Position numbers and translations under genes: made by a program
The notes under the pieces: model-generated
Told to the model about the DNA's origin: nothing
The model's database searches: none
What the model saw: only the letters and a program-made list of their open reading frames with translations
Shown: in pieces, positions 1,379 to 1,736 of the stretch
How the letters are laid out: each line of letters opens with the position of its first letter
Numbering within the stretch: the stretch's first letter is position 1
Source of the DNA: Candidatus Lithacetigena glycinireducens
GTDB lineage: Bacteria; Coprothermobacterota; HKB111
Length of the DNA: 5,156 bases
Direction of reading: 5' to 3'
Assembly (NCBI GenBank): GCA_018725485.1
Contig: QLUP01000080.1
Location: 1 to 5,156 of the forward strand

Positions 1379-1736
1379 GGGGGCGAATTGGATTCGACGG
1401 GATTGAGTTGTGTTAAGGTAGCAGGTCGAGGTCGCCACCGAAGCCCCTCGAAAAAAAGGTGGCAAAACAATAAACGCCGCTTAAATAGCGTAAATCCCTT
1501 CTTTATGAAGGGCGTCCTTCTGAGCTTTTATCAGCGAGGTTCAGCGGGGCGTGACCTAAAGCTGGTGAGGTTATGATTGCTTTCCTGAGGCAATTGTTAA
1601 CCTTGAAAATCAGGATATCGACTTGAAGCCCTGTCTTTGGGGCAGATAGTAGGAAGAATAAACAAAGACTATGCCTGTAGCTTGACCTTTTCGCATCCTT
1701 TTTCGGACGCGGGTTCGATTCCCGCCGCCTCCACCA
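1379..1736 (+). ncRNA. ssrA: tmRNA (transfer-messenger RNA), with an apparently truncated tag frame
   Basis: Rescues stalled ribosomes with SmpB by acting as tRNA-Ala and then mRNA. Seen: acceptor strands GGGGGCG (1379-1385) and CGCCTCC (1726-1732), then A and encoded CCA (1734-1736); the conserved TTGGATTCGACGGG block; T arm GCGGG/TTCGATT/CCCGC (1709-1725); helix 2 GTTAAG (1412-1417) with CTTGAC (1681-1686) and CAGG (1422-1425) with CCTG (1674-1677). Pseudoknots: PK1 TCGAGG 1426-1431/CCTCGA 1446-1451 with GCCACC 1434-1439/GGTGGC 1458-1463; PK2 CTGA 1520-1523/TCAG 1531-1534 with GCTTT 1524-1528/AAAGC 1558-1562; PK3 AGGTTA 1568-1573/TAACCT 1598-1603 with TCCTGA 1583-1588/TCAGGA 1610-1615; PK4 GCCC 1628-1631/GGGC 1640-1643 with GTCTTTG 1633-1639/CAAAGAC 1663-1669. 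The length of 358 nt is normal for a one-piece tmRNA. The oddity is the tag region, listed separately. Confidence 0.97.
1476..1484 (+). other. tmRNA resume point and residual tag frame: GCC GCT TAA (Ala-Ala-stop)
   Basis: PK1 ends at 1463. A 12-nt single-stranded spacer (AAAACAATAAAC) follows, ending in the UA-rich element that in other tmRNAs (for example E. coli AATAGTC before GCA) sits just before the resume codon. The next codon is GCC, then GCT, then TAA. Normal bacterial tags have about 8-15 codons ending in a motif like YALAA or VALAA; here only the terminal AA-stop remains. The stop is followed by CGC/GCG pairing around TTAAATA and a 6-bp hairpin CCCTTC-TTTAT-GAAGGG (1496-1512). The resume position is inferred from structure. 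Starting earlier at GGC (1461) would give GKTINAA, but that GGC is inside PK1. Confidence 0.6.

Follow-up and report, generated by a model that had tools for sequence, protein, structure and literature searches.

A conserved tmRNA with a predicted two-codon Ala-Ala tag in Candidatus Lithacetigena glycinireducens

The window analysed here, a stretch of 5,156 nucleotides that makes up one whole contig of the draft genome of Candidatus Lithacetigena glycinireducens (1.24 Mb, 83% complete), carries a tmRNA gene whose predicted tag frame is Ala-Ala-stop. The favoured reading, given a probability of about 80%, is that of a working tmRNA whose message an early stop limits to two alanine codons. As judged from its sequence, it is a well-supported additional case of a rare Ala-Ala-tag form first reported in 2025, and it would represent a case in nature where ribosome rescue is uncoupled from a long degron. 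The comparison within the genus relied on one other genome, the draft of Candidatus Psychracetigena formicireducens BS5B28 (QLTX01000013.1; 93% complete), which alone matched in a scan of genome contigs for further relatives and with which the whole window aligns at 87% (about 13% diverged).

Results

The covariance model RF00023 matched positions 1379–1736 of the plus strand with 162.6 bits (E 2e-65; gathering cut-off 47 bits), and the match spanned model positions 1–374, that is, its full length. A second tmRNA with a normal tag was also sought in the source genome, in which no other RF00023 match exceeded the cut-off. Apart from the full model, the gene has the G-U pair in the acceptor stem, the 3′ CCA (the RNA ends in ACCA), the succession of pseudoknot PK1, linker and resume codon, and an SmpB partner. 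A tag of the usual length (about 8 amino acids or more, with a hydrophobic end) is missing, there being two codons for Ala-Ala, and this length is typical for the tmRNA class but not defining. The neighbouring genes on the minus strand encode an ABC transporter ATPase, a GntR regulator and a YbjQ-family protein, and those on the plus strand a CT398-like zinc-ribbon protein and DNA polymerase I. In the sister families, smpB is the gene immediately upstream of the tmRNA gene; in both genomes of this genus it lies on a separate contig. The features of the locus are as follows.

1379–1736, plus strand: tmRNA gene (ssrA), one-piece standard form with encoded CCA (Rfam RF00023)
1379–1385, plus strand: 5′ strand of the acceptor stem, GGGGGCG, pairing with 1726–1732 (CGCCTCC); the third pair is G-U
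1427–1463, plus strand: PK1 (1427–1431 with 1446–1450 and 1434–1439 with 1458–1463), every pair retained in both species
1464–1475, plus strand: 12-nt linker AAAACAATAAAC with the UA frame-setting element at 1471–1472 (sequence, alignment with six relatives, PMC2481249)
1476–1484, plus strand: tag frame GCC GCT TAA, predicted Ala-Ala-stop (alignment, in silico ARAGORN test, second genome)
1491–1493, plus strand: second in-frame TAA, which is CAA plus a 1-nt deletion in BS5B28; the frame is not maintained past the first stop
1496–1512, plus strand: helix H5, hairpin CCCTTC/GAAGGG, downstream of the stop codon rather than containing it
1513–1563, plus strand: pseudoknot PK2
1564–1612, plus strand: pseudoknot PK3, in which four helix substitutions preserve pairing
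1613–1656, plus strand: region of pseudoknot PK4, pairing less certain
1709–1725, plus strand: T stem-loop of the tRNA-like domain

The G-U pair at the third position of the acceptor stem is the alanine identity pair. The initial annotation described the tRNA-like domain, helix 2 and all four pseudoknots as perfectly paired; this holds for the acceptor stem, the T stem, PK1 and also H5, whereas PK2 and PK3 are only well paired, and PK4 and parts of helix H2 are less certain. A possible small hairpin, CGCT-TAAAT-AGCG at 1478–1490, whose loop would hold the stop codon, is unchanged in both species.

In the E. coli tmRNA, the frame is set by A86 of the U85 A86 pair, four bases upstream of the resume codon (PMC2481249). 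With PK1 ending at 1463, U1471 and A1472 match these two bases and, because A1472 is the equivalent of A86, the resume codon should be the GCC that starts at G1476. The alignment agrees with this position, since AATAAA(C/T) followed by GCC occupies the equivalent place in every sister-family tmRNA aligned, with AATAAAT and then GCC at the resume site in five tmRNAs of two sister families of the phylum. On the unaltered window, ARAGORN reported no tmRNA; after an in silico replacement of TAA1482 it called the whole gene with a tag starting from base 98, which is position 1476. The early stop thus explains why ARAGORN missed the gene, and the tag start confirms the frame independently, so that two methods agree. 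The initial placement of the resume codon 12 nt after PK1, past the AATAAAC element and opening GCC GCT TAA, stands on the UA element, the relatives and the ARAGORN test alike.

It is very improbable that the true tag lies in another frame or is reached through readthrough of the TAA. A frame open at 1475 does run for 33 codons, and further downstream come another in-frame stop and, within H5, a TGA. However, the alternative frames give either TPLK or PLK and then a stop, or an open sequence, and neither has the hydrophobic end of a tag, as the initial annotation had already observed when it found no LAA-like ending. Moreover, the 1-nt deletion in BS5B28 breaks the 1475 frame, while the UA element, like every relative, places the resume codon at GCC. 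Readthrough is further opposed by the presence of release factors of the RF1/RF2 type in two full copies; the rescue factor ArfB was not detected in the genome, where only these two RF1/RF2-type proteins were found. On sequence comparison, the two-codon reading can be regarded as confirmed, that is, as real, conserved and correct.

The region from 1464 to 1490, which runs from the linker through the two alanine codons and past the stop, is identical in BS5B28 and the source (27 of 27 nt). The tmRNA as a whole differs by 4.8% between the two genomes, compared with 31.7% at the four-fold degenerate sites of two downstream genes and 34% in the upstream intergenic region; at the neutral rate, the chance of 27 unchanged nucleotides is about 3e-5. 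The first difference past the stop begins at 1491, where TAAAT became CAA-T, and the frame is therefore kept up to the first TAA and not beyond it, which speaks for the first TAA as the functional stop. In the PK3 helix, four substitutions between the species leave the pairs intact, in line with the earlier view of a gene under selection that has not decayed. Since the identical stretch comes from a separate assembly, it is not an assembly error. In a draft MAG contig of 5,156 bases, one might suspect gene decay, or a tag collapsed by faulty sequencing or assembly; the probability of this is practically negligible given the same sequence in a neighbourhood diverged by 13%, an RNA much better conserved than neutral sites, and an interval from resume codon to PK2 that is not shortened. 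The initial annotation had also advised reading the tags of close relatives; the genome of the same genus carries the identical GCC GCT TAA.

The length of that interval bears directly on the origin of the short tag. A count by hand, starting at the resume codon and running to the first PK2 strand, gives 37 nt in the source, 36 nt in BS5B28 and 37–44 nt in the sister families, whose tags have 8–9 codons (AEPEFALAA, AEPELALAA, AEPVAIAA and ADYDYALAA). The proposed loss of the central part of a normal tag had to be abandoned: deletion is excluded by the normal spacing to H5 and PK2 relative to the normal-tag relatives, and, as the interval has its normal length, nothing was taken out and an early stop lies at codon 3 inside it. 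A phylum of two genomes (G045 and G060) has a conserved six-residue tag, ANTLVA, whose last residues are Val-Ala and whose stop immediately precedes H5; its tmRNAs lie at L029, 1501–1890, and L088, minus strand, about 1504–1846. The source sequence after its early stop, ATA GCG TAA ATCCC, resembles the end of this tag in G045 (GTA GCG TAA TCCCC). A single substitution in a short ancestral tag could lie behind the present Ala-Ala-stop.

Further Ala-Ala tags were sought with two narrow spaced patterns in two largely overlapping sets of 386 genomes, where Ala-Ala-stop at the resume codon occurred only in both genomes of this genus; because the patterns are narrow, the search gives no estimate of frequency. 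The other two tmRNA matches carried the tags ADANLAYAA and ADENLAYAA, and the remaining tags of the survey were of ordinary length. A scan of viral contigs returned 94 stretches, and the 80 loci inspected by eye looked protein-coding and had no tmRNA features. Elsewhere, the ARAGORN tag ATPH for another tmRNA (L080, minus strand, 204–585) sits at an unusual place and looks wrong; by eye its resume site reads GCC GAA CAA CCT ATG GCT ATG GCG GCC TAA, or AEQPMAMAA. One more tmRNA (L032, minus strand, 1501–1848) was likewise missed by ARAGORN and has by eye an ordinary tag, ANSSYSLAA.

The protein partners named in the initial annotation, smpB and clpX, were both found intact in the genome. SmpB has 155 amino acids, with its tail present, in both genomes of the genus, and ClpX is intact together with an adjacent ClpP. 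In both genomes, ClpX keeps the GYVG, SITRDV and GGRKH motifs that form the ssrA-recognition loops.

RqcH was detected with the NFACT-R profile in seven of seven other genomes of the phylum. In the two genomes of this genus (83% and 93% complete), no RqcH was found by NFACT-N, by NFACT-R or by an alignment of the phylum's own RqcH. A weak NFACT-N match in the source genome was rejected as RqcH, being a 266-aa MutM/Fpg-like protein as judged from its sequence. The chance that both gaps result from incompleteness is about 1% (0.17 × 0.07, independence assumed). Despite the undetected RqcH, MutS2 is present in both genomes of the genus. This combination is uncommon: MutS2 usually accompanies RqcH, and genomes without RqcH usually lack MutS2 as well (PMC11633108). 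The presence of MutS2 makes the loss of RqcH in this genus probable rather than proven.

Discussion

In the favoured reading, SmpB would deliver Ala-tmRNA once a ribosome has stalled on a broken mRNA, and the nascent chain would be transferred to the tmRNA-borne alanine. The ribosome would then switch to GCC 1476, decode GCC and GCT, and terminate at TAA 1482, and the released protein is predicted to end in three alanines. Rescue should work with a two-codon frame, and the Ala-Ala-COO− end may still give ClpX a minimal degron, though probably a weaker one. In H. pylori, cells with an engineered tmRNA that adds only Ala and Val, because stops follow its resume codon, stay viable, although competence and stress tolerance suffer from a truncated tag (PMC2584231). 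This viability with two added residues makes rescue with two or three residues experimentally plausible.

Whether the three alanines are read by a protease is a separate matter. The main ClpX determinant of the ssrA tag is the Ala-Ala-COO− end (PMC7652416), which the predicted Ala-Ala-Ala terminus would supply to a ClpX retaining the GYVG, pore-2 and RKH motifs. Recognition is also helped by a leucine at position −3, the loss of which raises KM only modestly, and an unstructured tail of some length matters as well (PMC7652416, PMC10945698); owing to these two effects, three alanines may make a weak degron. For one engineered C-terminal E-A-A, degradation involved ClpA and was not mainly due to ClpX (PMC10945698). 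The earlier statement that the product would lack a good ClpXP degron was overstated, given the main determinant and the kept motifs. As an alternative, the RNA may serve rescue only, with ribosomes freed, three alanines read by no protease, and truncated proteins cleared by general proteolysis. This is possible, though the less favoured reading. H. pylori and N. gonorrhoeae remain viable without tagging (PMC2584231), and some mitochondrial and plastid tmRNAs have no tag frame at all (PMC11915505). Set against this, both codons specify alanine and produce the Ala-Ala end that is the key ClpX determinant, the retained codons are unchanged between the species, the 2-aa tags described in PMC11915505 are likewise Ala-Ala, and ClpX retains its ssrA-reading motifs. 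Between a minimal, weaker degron and none, the former is favoured slightly, as a little more likely on these sequence features.

The analogy with RqcH tails drawn in the initial annotation gains interest from the failure to detect RqcH in the genus, but it amounts to a correlation in two draft genomes. If the tmRNA had taken over alanine tailing after the loss of RqcH, its templated three-alanine tail would feed the same readers. The takeover would fit with RqcH being detected in each of the phylum's seven other genomes but not in the two of this genus, and with bacterial alanine tails made by RqcH being ClpXP degrons (PMC8012679); the evidence, however, comes from two draft genomes (83% and 93% complete), both of which hold MutS2, and the takeover is rather unlikely. 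The broader idea that in lineages without RqcH selection made the tmRNA a templated alanine-tailing device, with a three-alanine C-degron read by ClpXP, is more doubtful still; if true, trans-translation would have merged with alanine-tail quality control.

Two-residue Ala-Ala tags are not without precedent. The initial annotation knew of none so short, but 25 tmRNAs with such tags were reported in 2025, particularly in Fermentibacterota, for example Fermentibacter daniensis (PMC11915505). The report devotes two sentences to them, without explanation or mechanism; its candidates came mainly from ARAGORN and BLASTN. As ARAGORN misses the source gene, more cases may be hidden, and this miss shows how such genes get overlooked. 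What the present case adds is conservation in a second species, a comparison with sister families whose tags are normal, an account based on an early stop, and a possible connection with the undetected RqcH that can be tested. Compared by tag frame alone, the reported tmRNAs have exactly the Ala-Ala-stop of the source; the lineage named there is Fermentibacterota, whereas the source belongs to Coprothermobacterota, and its genus may itself be among the 25.

With RqcH/RqcP tailing, the source tmRNA would share the addition of alanines to the C-terminus of a stalled chain. That tailing is, however, untemplated and protein-driven on split 50S subunits, whereas the tmRNA tail would be templated, in a genus where RqcH was undetected. 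The sister-family tmRNAs have the same resume site and the same PK1–PK2 layout and spacing, but they carry 8–9 codons, with the stop within H5 and smpB adjoining, in contrast to two codons, a stop before H5 and smpB elsewhere in the source. The H. pylori SsrA-STOP variant resembles the source tmRNA in having a stop soon after the resume codon. It is a laboratory construct that adds Ala-Val, whereas the source tmRNA is natural and is predicted to add three residues with an Ala-Ala end.
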